DNA from: Shewanella violacea DSS12
GTDB lineage: Bacteria > Pseudomonadota > Gammaproteobacteria > Enterobacterales > Shewanellaceae
DNA: 64,000 bases
Reading direction: 5' to 3'
Assembly: GCF_000091325.1 (NCBI RefSeq)
Contig: NC_014012.1
Span: 372,001-436,000, forward strand
Below, piece by piece: positions 10,241 to 62,509 of this stretch; position 1 is the stretch's first letter, and each line of letters begins with the position of its first letter. The notes beneath the pieces are model-generated. The model ran no database searches, was not told where the DNA came from, and saw only the letters and a program-made list of their open reading frames with translations. Both the position numbers and the translations under genes were made by a program.

Positions 10241-10783
10241 CTCTTAATCAGATGGTCGAAGCCTACAGGTCTAATGTGATGCCTTGGTATGGTGTAACGA
10301 GAAGACTCAAACCAGCAGTTGATGAGACGAGCTAGCTCTTAATCAGATGGTCGAAATTAACTAATTTTTAATCAGATGGTCGAAGCCTACAGGTCTAGTG
10401 TGATGCCGAAATGGCTACAGTTATGGGGCCTTGTTCGCAATCTTCTTTATGCTGGCAGTGTATGGTGTCACGAGAAGACTCAAACCAGCAGTTGATGAGA
10501 CGAGCTAGCTCTTAATCAGATGGTCGAAATTAACTAATTCTTGAATCAGATGGTCGATGCATACAGGTCTAGTGTGATGCCGAAATGGCTACAGCTATGG
10601 GGCCTGTTCGCAATCTTCTTTATGCTGGCAGTGTATGGTGTCACGAGAAGACTAAAACCAGCAGCTAATGAGACGAGCTAGTTCTTAATCAGATGGTCGA
10701 AGCCTACAGGTCTAGTGTGATGCCGAAATAGCTACAACTTTGGGCCTTGTTCGCAATCTTCTTTACGCTGGTTTGGTAAGGCT
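10239..10783 (+). repeat. Tandem decayed copies of the permease 3' end
   Basis: The last ~140 bases of the permease gene recur about four times, in the same orientation, starting in its stop codon region: a shortened copy (about 10239–10334), two nearly full copies (about 10369–10510 and 10543–10683) and a partial copy (about 10684–10783). Each begins with TTAATCAGATGGTCGA and most end with GATGAGACGAGCTAG. Short fragments with AATCAGATGGTCGAAATTAA separate the copies. Copies share changes that the gene lacks (an insertion giving TCGAAGCCTACAGG, an extra G in TATGGGGCC that breaks the frame), so they expanded from one diverged tail. They are non-coding. Confidence 0.9.
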
Positions 10784-34468: not shown

Positions 34469-34566
34469 AGGTAAGATCCTGTTACTTTTTTAGCTGGGTA
34501 TAGTATTACTTTGATCGGGGGGGTGTAAATTACCCTTAGCTAATTATCGTTATTAGCCGATTAAAT

Positions 34567-34759
34567 TAATGCTTAATAACTAGATGGTAATTCAGGGCGG
34601 GAAGTGAGGGATTTTAATGCTTAATAACTAGATGGTAATTCAGGGCGGGTAAGGGAGGGATTTTAATGCTTAATAACTAGATGGTAATTCAGGGCGGGAA
34701 GGGAGGGATATTAATGCTTAATAATTAGATGGTACTTCAGGGCGGGAAGGGAGGGATAT
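34567..34759. repeat. Four-copy 48-bp tandem repeat
   Basis: Copies start at 34567, 34615, 34664 and 34712 (48, 49, 48 bases). Each contains TAATGCTTAATAACTAGATG and then GGTAATTCAGGGCGGG with a purine-rich GGGAGGGAT end. Differences between copies are few, so expansion is recent. It lies in the 376-base gap upstream of both the mscS-like gene and the 111-residue gene, so copy number could influence either promoter. Confidence 0.92.
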
Positions 34760-34844
34760 TGAGACTGAACAACGAGCATTTTTTTAACTCATATTCTGTT
34801 AAACTCTGTCCCCCATTTTTTGTTAAACGAAAGAGAGCCAGCCT

Positions 34845-57124: not shown

Positions 57125-57427
57125 ATGAAATTATTAACCAGCGTGGCCTTATCTGCAGTATTTGTGTTCTCATCAGCAAGTGTTGTTGCCGATATACCTG
57201 ATTTTTCTAAAACAGCGGCAGCTAAATCTAGCTATGATTTTTCGAAGAATCAGCCAGCGAAGGGAAATCTGTTGCAACTGGATTCGACTCACCATGATTT
57301 TTCTAAAACTGTTGCGGCAGGCAAGCATTATCAGTTTTCTAAAAATGAAGTATCTAGCAAAGAGAAGAGTTCTGACTCCTCGACTCAACATGATTTTTCT
57401 ACCACATCGGCGATGAAGCGAATCTAA
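57125..57427 (+). CDS. Secreted protein of 32-residue DFSK repeats
   Basis: A 100-residue protein starting at 57125 behind TTGGAG. After a signal peptide (MKLLTSVALSAVFVFSSASVVA) the whole mature part is repetitive: DFSKT at about residue 26, YDFSKN, HDFSKT, YQFSKN and HDFSTT. These form two 32-residue units (HDFSKT-x-AA-x-K-x-Y-x-FSKN …) plus a third, short unit. Spacers are Lys/Ser-rich and polar, suggesting an unfolded or beta-repeat periplasmic protein. No known family recognised. A terminator follows. Confidence 0.75.
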   Translation: MKLLTSVALSAVFVFSSASVVADIPDFSKTAAAKSSYDFSKNQPAKGNLLQLDSTHHDFSKTVAAGKHYQFSKNEVSSKEKSSDSSTQHDFSTTSAMKRI

Positions 57428-57477
57428 GAGTTAGCTGTTACAACGAGTAATAACTAAATAGTTAAATCGTTTGAACT

Positions 57478-57514
57478 AAAGGCCCGAACTCACTGTATTG
57501 TTCTGGGCCTTTAT
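57478..57514 (+). terminator. Terminator after the DFSK-repeat gene
   Basis: A stem AAAGGCCC/GGGCCTTT extended by GAAC/GTTC, then TATTTTTAC. 11 bases later the 7-bp repeat begins. Confidence 0.75.
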
Positions 57515-57525
57515 TTTTACTAGTG

Positions 57526-57595
57526 GCTTACCGCTTACCGCTTACCGCTTACCGCTTACCGCTTACCGCTTACCGCTTACCGCTTACCGCTTACC
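57526..57595. repeat. Ten perfect GCTTACC heptamers
   Basis: Ten exact tandem copies of a 7-bp unit without a single mismatch. The right end enters the 3' end of the minus-strand gene at 57584 and provides its last codons and stop (read GGTAAGCGGTAA on that strand). Perfect identity suggests recent or ongoing slippage. Confidence 0.95.
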
Positions 57596-57949
57596 GGATT
57601 TATCTAGGCTCTTATCTAAAGCACGCCCTTGTCGATAGGCATCGATAACCCCAACCAGCCAGCTAATGATAAATACCCAAGTAGCAATAGATATGTAGAG
57701 GGCCGCAGAGCCACTCGGTTGTTCGGTGATCATTGGATAGATCAGATTAAAATCCAGAGGAATGGCACCGGATAAGATCTGATCTGAGATATCCCTCGCA
57801 CGCTCCACCGCTTGATAGAGGAGGTAGACTAATCCACTCAGGCTGACGGCAGAGATAAGGGTGCCGATCTTATATTTTTTTAAGTAAAAGTGCCCGGTCC
57901 CGGGACAGACTAATGCTGAGATCAGTGCGGCTGTGATTGCCTTGCTCAT
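57584..57949 (-). CDS. Small membrane protein, TM2-like
   Basis: A 121-residue inner-membrane protein. The start at MSKAITAALISALVCPGTGHFY has GAAGAAA upstream. The PGTGHFYLKKYKIGTLI pattern resembles TM2-type domains (PG-G-FY motif, then a membrane segment). Three membrane segments are seen (AITAALISALV, LISAVSLSGLVYLLY, AALYISIATWVFIISWLVGV) before a basic tail whose last residues come from the heptamer repeat. Function unknown. It follows the next listed gene by 35 bases and is probably co-transcribed. Confidence 0.72.
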   Translation of the reverse strand: MSKAITAALISALVCPGTGHFYLKKYKIGTLISAVSLSGLVYLLYQAVERARDISDQILSGAIPLDFNLIYPMITEQPSGSAALYISIATWVFIISWLVGVIDAYRQGRALDKSLDKSGKR

Positions 57950-57984
57950 ATGAGTTTCTTCATTACTTGATGTGCATCTTGTCA

Positions 57985-58356
57985 TCATTCTAAATCAATT
58001 CGACCAATGGCCTCATGTAAAAATGTCACTTTATCGATGAATTTTAGTTTAGTTTCAGACTCAGCCTCATTTGCATGGCTTGCATCTAGCTGACTCTGGA
58101 CCCCAAGCAGTTCCTGTACTAACCAGCCGCGGATCATCACGTAATAACGTGAGTCGGTGCCATATCGGCTTATGGTGTCGAGAGAGTCTGGATCTTTGGG
58201 CTTAGCCAGTGCAGCCGAAATGGCTTGGATCATAATGCCTATTTGGTAGGTCTGGGAAGATTGCTCATCATAGAATTGATTTTCTTGAGCCATAACCGGA
58301 ATAGAGCTCAATAGGCTGGTGGCCAAGGTAAAGGATATGAGATTGGCATATTTCAT
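57985..58356 (-). CDS. Small exported protein next to the GATC array
   Basis: A 123-residue exported protein: leader MKYANLISFTLATSLLSSIPVMA, then a polar helical part (TYQIGIMIQAISAALAK, YYVMIRGWLVQELLGVQSQL) with no Cys. No family recognised. The ATG at 58356 has AGG 8 bases upstream; an ATG five codons earlier lies inside the repeat array. The array reaches to within a few bases of this start, so its promoter must be inside or replaced by repeat sequence. Confidence 0.65.
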   Translation of the reverse strand: MKYANLISFTLATSLLSSIPVMAQENQFYDEQSSQTYQIGIMIQAISAALAKPKDPDSLDTISRYGTDSRYYVMIRGWLVQELLGVQSQLDASHANEAESETKLKFIDKVTFLHEAIGRIDLE

Positions 58357-58360
58357 TGGG

Positions 58361-59330
58361 GCGACCTGCATGGGGGATCAGTTTCATTACAGTATCAAGC
58401 AATTGCAGGATCTAAAAGTAAAGCCGATCCGCAATGGGATCCAACCGACTTGGCTCCGAGTGACCAGCTCTGGGAACGGAGCGATCTGCATAGGGCGATC
58501 TACATAGGATGATCTACATAGGATGATCTGAATTTGAGAGTCAGTTCCAATACAGTATCAAGATATAGCAGGATCTAAAAGTAAAGCCGATCCGCTATGG
58601 GATCCAACTGATTTAGATCCGAGTGACCTGTTCTGGGATCGGAGCGTTCTGCATGGGGCGATCTGTATAGGATGATCTGAATTTGAGAGTCAGTTCCAAT
58701 ACAGTATCAAGATATAGCTGGATCTAAACGTAAACCTGATCTGCAATGGGATCCAACCGACTTAGATCCGAGTGACCTGCTCTGGGAGCGGAGCGTTCTG
58801 CGTGGGGCGATCTACATAGGAGGATCTGAATAGGGGGTCAGTTCCATTAAAGTATCAAGCAATTGCAGGATCTAAACGTAAACCCGATCCGCAATGGGAT
58901 CCAACCGACTTGGATCCAAGTGACTTGCTCTGGGAACGATCTGCCTAGGGAATCGCATAGCAGAGTCAGTTTCATTAGAGTATCAAGCAATTGCAGGATC
59001 TAAACGTAAACCCGATCCGCAATGGGATCCAACCGACTTAGATCCGAGCAACCTGCTCTGGGATCGAAGTGTTCTGCGTGGGGCGATCTGCATAGGATGA
59101 TCTGAATTTGAGAGTCGGTACCATTAGAGTATCAAGATATTACAGGGTCTAAACGTAAACGCGATCAGCAATGGGATCCAACCGGCCAGGATCCGAGTGA
59201 CCTGCTCTGGGATCGGAGCGTTCTGCATGGGGCGATCTGTATAGGGGAGTCGGTTCCATTAAAGTATCAAGCTATTGTAGCGTCTAAAAGTAAGCCCGAT
59301 CCGCAATGGGATCGGGATTGCCGGGAAGCA
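58361..59330. repeat. GATC-dense tandem array, seven ~150-bp units
   Basis: A noncoding array of seven related units. The anchor GATCCGCAATGGGATC recurs, with small changes, at 58426, 58589, 58738, 58886, 59014, 59163 and 59298 (spacing 163, 149, 148, 128, 149, 135). Other repeated parts are GTATCAAGCAATTGCAGGAT, CTAAACGTAAACCC and GAGTGACCTGCTCTGGGATC. By direct count there are about 40 GATC sites in 970 bases, roughly ten times random expectation. No long reading frame runs through it. It separates the small minus-strand operon from the RND operon. Confidence 0.92.
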
Positions 59331-59428
59331 GTTACTTGTAAATCTCTGAGTGGTGAGCTTTCTCCTTGTTCATTCCTATTACTACTTTATTTTTGAATCT
59401 TTTTTTCCTGCTGCTTGCTTATGCCTAC

Positions 59429-62400
59429 TTAGTTTTTCGCCTGTTTAGGGTAAGGAATACGAAATGCTAAGGTATAAGTCACCGGCAAGACGATGAGTGT
59501 CAGCACTGAGGCGAAGCCCAGGCCGAAGATGATGGTGATAGCCATAGAGCCGAAGAAGGCATCTGACAGTAGTGGCACCATTCCCAGCATAGTCGTTATA
59601 GCTGCCATCAACACGGGTCTTACCCGGCTCACGGACGAGTCGATCACAGCTTGATAGGCCTCCTTACCTTCACTCAGTTCCAGATTGATCTGATCGACCA
59701 GTACTATGCCATTTTTGATGATCATGCCAGTCAGGCTGAGTAAGCCAAGCAGCGCCATGAAACTGAAGGGCGCATCGAATATCAATAGGCCGGATACCAC
59801 ACCGATTAAGGCTAACGGTACGGTAAACCAGATAACCAGAGGCTGACGTATGGAGTTAAACAGCAGCACTGTGATGAGGAACATGGCCATATAGCCCATA
59901 GGAATTGAGCTAAATACTGATACTTGGGCCTCGCCTGCCGTCTCGTATTCGCCTCCCCATTCGAACTCATAGCCATTTGGAAGCGGGATGGCTTCTATGT
60001 CGGCTCTGATTTTCTTGAAGACAGAATCGGCAGTCTCATCGGTGCCGTTGATAGGATCGGCATAAACGGCCAGCATACGTTTCCTGTCACGGCGCATGAT
60101 AAGCGGGTTTTCCCACTCGGTGCTAAATTCTGACACCACTTGAGTTGCGGGCACGAAGACGTTGTTTTCCGAGCTCCAGACCTGGAGTTTCCACAGACTG
60201 TCGGCATCGAGGCGTTCCTCGGCTGGCGCCCTGGCTATGATAGGCATCAGGTGAGTGTTCTCACGATAGATACCAACTTGCTTACCACTGAAATTAACCA
60301 GCAGTGAATTATCGAGATCTTGCTTGCTGATCCCGGTTTCACGGGCCTGAGCGAGTGCCAGTTGAGGACGGATCAGGGTTACCTGGTTACGCCAGCTATG
60401 TCTTACACCAACAGCTGTCGGCTCTGCATCTAAAATAGCCTTGGCTTGGGTGGCAAGCTGACGCAGTACCACAGGGTCTTCACCGTAGAAGCGCGCCTCT
60501 ATCTTAGCCGCTGGGCTGGGACCATTTTCCATATACTTGAAACGATATTCGGCTTCTGGGTACTTGAGGCTTAACTCCTTCTCCAGTGTGCGCATGTATT
60601 TATCTAAGCTGACAAGATCTGTCATCTCGATCAGTAGTTGTCCGTATGAGTTGTAGCCCTTCTCCGGGACATAGGAGAGCACGAATCTCTGGGCACCCTG
60701 ACCGACAACGCTGGTGAGATTAACTAATCCTATATCTTGGGTCGCTTGCTGGGCAAGCAGGTCTTTCTCTATGCGACCTAGCAGGTGTTCTGTGGCCTTG
60801 ATATCTGTGCCTTCCGGCATCCACACATCCACGAAAAACATAGGCGTGTTTGAGGCAGGAAAGAAGACATTTTTAACGTAGCCAAAACCCATTACCGAAG
60901 TGAACAGCGCAGCGATAACCATGAGTAAAGTGACGGCGCGAAAACGCATGGCCAGATTTAAGCTGCTACGGTATAGCTGGAATATCCAGCCCTTGTAAGG
61001 GTCATCATTGTCATCACCACTGACTTCGCCATCTTTAAACATCAGGTGGCAGAAGAAGGGGGTCAAGGTCATGGCGGTGATCCAACTGATAAATAGCGAG
61101 ATCAGTAACACCTGGAATAGGGATACGCAGAACTCACCTGTGGCTGTGTCTGACAAGCCAATCGGAGCGAAGGCGAGAATGGCGATGATTGTGGCGCCAA
61201 GTAGCGGCCATTGAGTCTGTGACACCACTTGTTTAGATGTCTCTAGTCGGCTTTGGCCACGCTTGATGCCTATGAGTATGCCTTCGGTCACCACTATGGC
61301 GTTATCGACCAGCATACCCAGAGCTATGATTAGGGCACCAAGGGAGATGATTTGCAGCTCGATATTGAGCACCTTCATCATGATGAAGGTGCCTAATATG
61401 GTCAATAGCAGTACCAGTCCCATCAGCAGACCGGCACGCACGCCCATGAATACCAAGAGCACGAAGATCACTATGGCAATAGATTCAGCCAGATTGATTA
61501 AGAAACCTGTGATGGTCTCATCGACCATCTTACTCTGGTCGTAGACAGTGTTGAGCTCTATACCTATGGGGCGCTCATTTTCGAGCTCGAGCAGTCTTTC
61601 ATTGATGGCTACGCCGATATCGACCACGTTGACGCCACTGGAAAATGAGATACCGATAGACAAGGCTGATTCGCCATTGCCGTGGTAGATATTTGTTGGA
61701 GTCTCATCGTTATCTTTATACACCTGGGCGATATCGCCAAGGTAGACCAATTTCGTGCTGCCAGGGGCGCTAATTAACAGACGCTCCATCTGCTCTACTC
61801 GATTAAATTCACCGGTAGGATGGATACGAATTCGGTTATCGCCAACGCGGATACTGCCGGCATTGGAGACCACGTTCTGGCTATTGATCAGGCTATAGAT
61901 ATAGTCTTGATCTAGACCCAGAGCATTGAGTTTCTGCTGGGAAATCTCCACCACTACTTGTTCGGTAATTTTGCCGGCTATGGTGACTTTTTTTACACCA
62001 TCGACAAGCACAAGTTCACGCCTGAGGAAATCGGCATAATTTTGCAACTCACGGCTAGTGTAGCCATCTCCTGAGATGTTGAGCAAAATACCATACACAT
62101 CGCCGAAATCATCGATAACAGCAGGAGTCACAACCCCAGGTGGCAGTTCACCTAGCTTGTCGTTGACCTTACGGCGAACCTCATCCCACACCTGAGGCAG
62201 TTCGTCTGCGCCGTAATGCTCGTGGACCTCTATCTCTATCTGCGACAGACCAGCACTGCTGATCGAGGTGATATGCTTGATAGCATCGAGTTGCTGCAGG
62301 GCATCTTCCAGGGGAAGGGTTACTTCCTCCTCGACCTGTTCCGGTGAAGCACCAGGATAGGCGGTGACAACCAGTGCCTGCTTGAGGGTGAACTCGGGGA

Positions 62401-62509
62401 ATTCGAGCTGACCTAGCCCAAGAAATGAGATGCTGCCCCCCACGAGTAGCAATAGGGCAAACATCCAGCTCACCACTTTATGTTCTATAGAGTATTGTGC
62501 GAAATTCAC
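59429..62509 (-). CDS. RND efflux pump inner-membrane transporter
   Basis: A 1026-residue RND (AcrB-like) proton-driven exporter. It begins MNFAQYSIEHKVVSWMFALLL, with the twelve-segment, two-periplasmic-loop plan. TM4 has GALIIALGMLVDNAIVVTEG with the essential acidic residue for proton relay, and the C-terminal half has LLGLLSLTGMIIKNGIVLVDQINL. It resembles the VexH/MexB-like drug-export branch rather than the heavy-metal CusA branch. It follows the adaptor gene by 61 bases in one operon. No TolC-type gene is in this operon. Confidence 0.94.
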   Translation of the reverse strand: MNFAQYSIEHKVVSWMFALLLLVGGSISFLGLGQLEFPEFTLKQALVVTAYPGASPEQVEEEVTLPLEDALQQLDAIKHITSISSAGLSQIEIEVHEHYGADELPQVWDEVRRKVNDKLGELPPGVVTPAVIDDFGDVYGILLNISGDGYTSRELQNYADFLRRELVLVDGVKKVTIAGKITEQVVVEISQQKLNALGLDQDYIYSLINSQNVVSNAGSIRVGDNRIRIHPTGEFNRVEQMERLLISAPGSTKLVYLGDIAQVYKDNDETPTNIYHGNGESALSIGISFSSGVNVVDIGVAINERLLELENERPIGIELNTVYDQSKMVDETITGFLINLAESIAIVIFVLLVFMGVRAGLLMGLVLLLTILGTFIMMKVLNIELQIISLGALIIALGMLVDNAIVVTEGILIGIKRGQSRLETSKQVVSQTQWPLLGATIIAILAFAPIGLSDTATGEFCVSLFQVLLISLFISWITAMTLTPFFCHLMFKDGEVSGDDNDDPYKGWIFQLYRSSLNLAMRFRAVTLLMVIAALFTSVMGFGYVKNVFFPASNTPMFFVDVWMPEGTDIKATEHLLGRIEKDLLAQQATQDIGLVNLTSVVGQGAQRFVLSYVPEKGYNSYGQLLIEMTDLVSLDKYMRTLEKELSLKYPEAEYRFKYMENGPSPAAKIEARFYGEDPVVLRQLATQAKAILDAEPTAVGVRHSWRNQVTLIRPQLALAQARETGISKQDLDNSLLVNFSGKQVGIYRENTHLMPIIARAPAEERLDADSLWKLQVWSSENNVFVPATQVVSEFSTEWENPLIMRRDRKRMLAVYADPINGTDETADSVFKKIRADIEAIPLPNGYEFEWGGEYETAGEAQVSVFSSIPMGYMAMFLITVLLFNSIRQPLVIWFTVPLALIGVVSGLLIFDAPFSFMALLGLLSLTGMIIKNGIVLVDQINLELSEGKEAYQAVIDSSVSRVRPVLMAAITTMLGMVPLLSDAFFGSMAITIIFGLGFASVLTLIVLPVTYTLAFRIPYPKQAKN

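Follow-up and report, generated by a model that had tools for sequence, protein, structure and literature searches.

In Shewanella violacea DSS12, a tandem array dense in GATC sites occupies the intergenic region that separates an RND efflux gene from a small two-gene operon. Both neighbors are on the minus strand. The genome is a single contig (C1) of 4,962,103 bp, and the whole stretch of DNA that was analyzed, called the window, covers 64 kb of it (C1:372001-436000). The features of the locus are listed in Table 1, with positions counted from the first base of the window. Two other features are found on the far side of the operon. Its 3' end (57526-57596) has ten perfect copies of the heptamer GCTTACC, and the stop codon of the second gene falls within them; a diverged version, GCTTATT/GCTTATC, is found at the orthologous place in the related genome G003 (locus L002, about 630-660). 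The stretch 57125-57424 encodes a small protein, predicted to be secreted, that has repeated (H/Y)DFSK-type motifs and no Pfam match to E 0.1; a protein of this type was also recognized by eye in G003.

Table 1. Features of the GATC-dense array and its neighbors in the S. violacea window.
Feature	Position	Strand	Remarks
Small operon, gene 2	57584..57952	-	122 aa; weak similarity to DUF6677/DUF5683/TM2, below cut-off
Small operon, gene 1	57985..58356	-	123 aa; no Pfam match to E 0.1, no NCBIfam match to E 0.01
Small operon leader	58357..58390	-	the GACCTGCAT 14-mer and GAGTC..TATCAAG parts of the unit have matches in the S. benthica counterpart
GATC-dense tandem array	58376..59330	.	about 6.5 units; 40 GATC
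Unit 1	58391..58553	.	163 bp; 7 GATC; extra 14-bp copies of CGATCTACATAGGA
Unit 2	58554..58702	.	149 bp; 7 GATC
Unit 3	58703..58850	.	148 bp; 6 GATC
Unit 4	58851..58978	.	128 bp; 5 GATC; deletions
Unit 5	58979..59127	.	149 bp; 7 GATC
Unit 6	59128..59262	.	135 bp; 5 GATC
Partial unit 7	59263..59330	.	2 GATC; ends with the complete hairpin known from relatives
Terminator-like hairpin	59295..59316	-	CCCGATCC-6-GGATCGGG; 3' of the RND gene; shape kept in the genus
Conserved 10-mer	59320..59329	-	GCTTCCCGGC; directly upstream of the hairpin
RND efflux transporter gene	59429..62509	-	ACR_tran, 529 bits

The array is noncoding and consists of six full units and a partial one. Unit boundaries were set by cutting at AGTATCAAG. 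The preliminary description of this DNA had seven units of 128–163 bp; the size range stands, but the copy next to the RND gene is incomplete (67 bp), so there are about 6.5 units instead of seven. Pairwise identity among the full units is 0.805-0.899, and they differ from their own consensus by 8% on average. Tandem Repeats Finder detects 14- and 15-bp periods nested within the period of about 149 bp, and these short repeats bear GATC. The unit consensus has seven GATC positions. Five of them are present in five or six of the six full units, one is present in four, and one in three, and the spacings 17, 12, 15, 21, 23, and 14 repeat through the array, as had been noticed from the sequence at the outset. 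The longest stop-free run is 76 codons and each of the six frames has 9-18 stops, which bears out the noncoding status and leads to rejection of a coding repeat.

The number of GATC sites is about ten times that expected from the genome. A direct count gives exactly 40 within 58361-59330 (41/kb), in line with the first estimate of about 40 where random sequence would have about four. The density in a 400-kb sample of the genome is 3.875/kb, corresponding to about 3.8 sites per 970 bp. When the 970 bases of the array are shuffled with dinucleotides preserved (1000 shuffles), the mean is 9.9, with a standard deviation of 2.7 and a maximum of 18. The comparison of 970-bp stretches covers the window and the genome sample: the richest other stretch of the window has 14 GATC (scan step 10), and the other 19 sampled 20-kb stretches have 12 or fewer per 970 bp.

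Tandem arrays are common in this genome, but arrays rich in GATC are not. The sample and window together (464 kb) contain 12 other arrays with a period of at least 30 and a length of at least 100, counted whether intergenic or not, and their densities range from 0 to 22 GATC/kb. Seven have no GATC, while the rest have 4-22/kb and at most three sites each. Within the window, tandem arrays with 48-bp and 173-bp units are found at 34565-34760 and 10287-10701, both with zero GATC. Two further arrays (L073 9171-9337 and L088 19329-19462) have similar units of about 51 bp on opposite strands, far apart in the genome, and by eye these units carry a CGATCGGGGATAAGTA-like sequence. Outside the genus, 15-bp GATC-bearing tandem repeats (GATCACTCCAAAATG) are found at two places among the matches listed for G041, which belongs to another family of the order, suggesting that such clusters can arise through repeat growth. 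The two places are C1:7-85 and C4:117303-117381 of that genome, one of them near a contig end.

The conserved feature of the locus is the hairpin at the RND end of the array, not GATC. Placed at a gene's 3' end, this hairpin combines an 8-pair G+C-rich stem with a T-rich tail and is a putative intrinsic terminator. A model made of the hairpin and GCTTCCCGGC finds matches, many of them weak, in 60 of 126 same-genus genomes (E 0.01). Thirty loci were inspected; the RND gene adjoins the hairpin in 29, and in all 30 a hairpin of at least 8 pairs is predicted within 3 or fewer bases after GCTTCCCGGC. Since the model that retrieved the loci holds both motif and hairpin, the presence of the two is partly a matter of selection, which does not apply to the changes in stem sequence. 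The stems are diverse (for example CCCGATCC, CCCTGATTAAG, and TTCAGGCCCAACACA), and in 20 of the 30 loci the hairpin has no GATC. In an alignment of 11 mostly close copies, a double change is seen in only one of 13 hairpin pairs. The combination of GCTTCCCGGC with a hairpin of variable stem (loci L092-L121) could be a 3'-UTR element or the end of a small RNA. Membership of the hairpin in a dispersed repeat family was also weighed and rejected: S. violacea has one further copy beyond the array. This second element, of about 110 bp, is at C1:3641063 (L004 1441-1560; also L003 in the genome G010), between genes that by eye encode an AraC-type regulator and an RND adaptor.

The repeated hairpins could act at the RNA level, either by shielding the operon from transcription that reads through from the RND gene or by regulating a long leader transcript. 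Three terminator-like sites are found on the minus strand (shuffle mean 0.9), the last of them being the hairpin that is kept beside the RND gene in 29 of the 30 loci. The minus-strand RNA has a fold z-score of -2.2, and none of 20 shuffles is equally stable. However, the two sites within full units have shorter stems (5 pairs) than the terminal hairpin (8 pairs), and no terminator-like match came from the remaining four full units. The plus strand has a z-score of -1.4; of the 26 pairs predicted in the unit, a double change is seen in just one, and covariation scores unfavorably. With such z-scores and so little covariation among units, a structured RNA unit is a weak candidate, and an RNA-level device is improbable. 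A known RNA family was also rejected, with no Rfam match in 57400-59500 to E 1.

Related genomes have a single-copy counterpart of the unit and no array. The 30 loci gave 23 genomes with both flanks readable, S. violacea included. Seven loci were left out: L094 has no RND gene, L095 has a partial small-gene hit, and L100, L103, L104, L105, and L119 have no small-operon hits. For L099, L101, L102, and L116 the second small gene served as the end point of the gap, the first being undetected. The array is absent from the gap between the RND gene and the operon in all 22 other genomes, which belong to the same genus, and these gaps contain 0-7 GATC each (0-16.6 GATC/kb). The sole repeat found in the 22 gaps, in L112, is a 10-mer repeated over 29 bp. 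Longer gaps in L106, L109, L110, and L111 were considered as other expansions, but repeat finding detected no repeats in these four; the extra length in L106 and L110 resembles an additional short gene. When 60 genomes were queried with the whole array, three matched, S. violacea included, and no related array was found: beyond the array itself, only a 45-60-base piece of the hairpin was matched. Around the hairpin, G071 (L092) is identical to S. benthica (L029) and G122 (L098) to Shewanella sp. UCD-KL12 (L030), so these are not independent genomes.

The unit can be traced in part to the hairpin and operon leader of the closest relatives. The gap in relatives is about 220 bp long. In S. benthica, G003, and G010 (L005) it has one hairpin and one leader, and the only GATC sites of these leaders are the two within the hairpin. 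Aligned in pieces with the S. benthica leader, the unit is identical at 29 of 30 bases in the hairpin part, at 33 of 44 over GACC..ATTG, and at 12 of 13 over CGACCTGCATAGG, where the unit has GATC and the relative has GACC. No counterpart of some 50 bp of the unit was found in the leaders of these relatives. The fourfold sites of the RND gene are 0.28 different from those of S. benthica; with units 8% from their consensus, the array is by this rough dating not necessarily very recent. Derivation from a mobile element or phage was rejected on the absence of matches in plasmids (E 1e-5), in phages (E 0.1), and, for one 22-base pattern of the unit, in viral contigs.

The absence of the sites from close relatives makes a conserved Dam-dependent switch of the operon unlikely. 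Such a switch, one of the options first proposed, would set the small operon ON or OFF through methylation of GATC in the array upstream. The array directly precedes the operon start, with one GATC (58376) lying 20 bases away from the start codon (58356). However, the operon lies beside the RND gene in the 22 other genomes with gaps that have no array, and apart from the two hairpin sites the upstream GATC are not kept even in the three closest relatives. A scan of 57900-59500 for one promoter type gave a single promoter-like site, inside gene 1, compared to a shuffle mean of 2.5; within this scope, no regulator site combined with GATC was identified. Altogether the switch is very unlikely.

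Binding by an architectural protein is less likely still. The array could be a set of IHF-type bending sites in which GATC is secondary. Its units match WATCAANNNNTTR, the IHF consensus; five of the eight matches in the window are in the array, in five units, and one match is present in each of the leaders of S. benthica, G003, and G010, where the leader is single-copy. Units 2 and 3, two of the seven copies, have no match, however, and the five matches are copies of one site, consensus matches of this kind being weak evidence. An IHF array is thus highly improbable.

S. violacea encodes the proteins that would act on a dense GATC cluster. It has a Dam-family enzyme (TIGR00571, 297 bits compared to a cut-off of 115; 399.8 bits with the PRK10904 equivalog model, under its cut-off of 441), SeqA (NF008389, 244 bits compared to a cut-off of 185), and MutH. 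Dam and SeqA are what a methylation switch or a chromosome-organizing site would require, and the lack of either gene, named at the outset as grounds for refutation, does not apply. Newly replicated, the array should rank among the most strongly SeqA-bound places of the chromosome and should stay hemimethylated longer. On these physical grounds, binding of SeqA to the array is likely.

By several counts the array is denser in GATC than the replication origin. The region C1:1-450 resembles oriC, with four DnaA boxes and a MioC-type gene recognized by eye. It is about 430 kb from the array. The densest 970-bp stretch at oriC has 26 GATC compared to 40 in the array, and there are 26 pairs of GATC within 34 bp at oriC compared to 43. 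The window has four matches to TTWTNCACA, the DnaA box motif, and none falls in the array, so that an origin-like element is rejected. A genome scan for three GATC with gaps of 8-14 found 38 places: 12 fall inside the 970 bp of the array, and the origin region has one, at C1:375. The control pattern read backwards (CTAG) with the same gaps is found at 40 places, so the genome total is unremarkable and what stands out is the clustering in the array. Narrower triplets (gaps 8-11) are found at 12 places in this genome, where the control has 23, and at 0-15 in 15 relatives.

The density of the array makes it possible that it is a chromosome-organizing site selected for SeqA binding. Hemimethylated GATC would load SeqA, which would delay remethylation and prolong sister cohesion, as at the snap loci and oriC of E. 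coli. Passages of PMC3749930 describe GATC-dense E. coli loci that bind more SeqA and separate later. The excess of sites and close pairs over oriC, the array's share of the tight triplets, and the Dam and SeqA genes are consistent with such a role. On the other hand, the array is missing from 22 syntenic genomes, the narrower triplets show no excess over relatives, and helical phasing of the GATC pairs, tested at 10.5 bp, is absent (mean cosine -0.19 in the array and 0.05 at oriC). Passages of PMC5145175 describe efficient SeqA binding in vitro as requiring two sites phased by helical turns, but they describe the sites of E. coli oriC as likewise unphased.

Selection on GATC within the array would leave the sites better conserved than their surroundings, and GATC columns are less variable than others only weakly. 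Consensus GATC are retained in 0.87 of units, compared to 0.71 for non-overlapping consensus tetramers, and 5 of 28 GATC columns are variable compared to 44 of 118 others. A column-block permutation gives P 0.03, but P is 0.135 without the hairpin core, and since the units are related by descent even 0.03 is generous. The consensus unit has seven GATC compared to two in the relatives' leader, and neutral growth accounts for this rise less well than for anything else. Overall, a selected SeqA/Dam site is unlikely, with a small but appreciable probability. A specific form of it, about equally unlikely, is a compact SeqA-loading centre that evolved recently on the chromosome arm, surpasses oriC in GATC, and arose through amplification of a repeat in a single spot instead of from scattered sites. 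Such a centre would hold newly replicated sisters together or set the methylation of its neighborhood.

The array is best explained as a lineage-specific nested minisatellite in which GATC hitch-hiked, a reading to which we give a probability of about two in three. Single-copy founders in relatives, the 12 other arrays with little GATC, and the nested 14-15-bp repeats that bear GATC all fit neutral spread, which had been the last of the options proposed and is the one that fits best. The founder would have been a gap of about 220 bp, as in relatives, with one terminator-like hairpin that has two GATC in its stem, and then the operon leader. GATC-bearing duplications of 14-15 bp in the S. violacea lineage may have contributed to a unit of about 149 bp with seven GATC, together with the leader 14-mer, in which GATC corresponds to GACC in S. 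benthica. This unit would then have been amplified in tandem to about 6.5 copies that later diverged. The GATC density would thus be mainly inherited by copying rather than gained site by site, and SeqA binding would be a consequence of the array and not its reason. The array is probably a strong but passive candidate target of SeqA. Some evidence is against neutral growth. The array is the densest GATC cluster found here, above oriC, which would be a striking accident, and the weak conservation of GATC columns, the rise from two to seven sites, and the unmatched 50 bp or so of the unit point the same way.

Comparison with known systems places the array closest to intergenic minisatellites. 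In bacteria these are tandem repeats of single lineages. A minisatellite has head-to-tail copies of a unit longer than 10 bases, and the array has about 6.5 such copies of a unit of about 149 bp. Like intergenic minisatellites, it is noncoding, its units are 80-90% alike with nested shorter periods, and it is absent from the relatives examined; it is restricted to one lineage and, apart from the unmatched part of the unit, has a single-copy origin. Unlike them, it has an unusually high GATC content, and it is known from one S. violacea genome. It shares with oriC and the SeqA-bound snap loci of E. coli a high GATC density in a genome with Dam and SeqA, and over equal lengths it exceeds the oriC of its own genome. 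Unlike those loci, it has no counterpart found in relatives, it is far from oriC, and it has neither DnaA boxes nor phased sites. Passages of PMC493266 propose a network of GATC clusters in E. coli that are intragenic and largely shared with Salmonella. The array resembles the clusters described there in having at least four close GATC in a short stretch, but it is intergenic and seen in one species. The terminal hairpin, for its part, resembles an intrinsic (Rho-independent) terminator in its position after the RND gene, its T-rich tail, and its genus-wide shape; unlike a simple terminator, it has its full stem only in the last unit, and the other copies are shortened. Among the titles and abstract openings listed on S. 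violacea repeats, SeqA and GATC clusters, and Shewanella minisatellites, mostly from outside subscription journals, none describes the array.

The array is of interest whether or not it has a function. If it binds SeqA, it would be a natural test piece: a GATC cluster of origin strength that has no DnaA boxes and is absent from the relatives examined. The influence of GATC density could then be told apart from all other features of oriC. Should the array have no role, repeat growth alone is seen to be enough for a GATC density like that of an origin, which is a caution against inferring function from GATC clusters.
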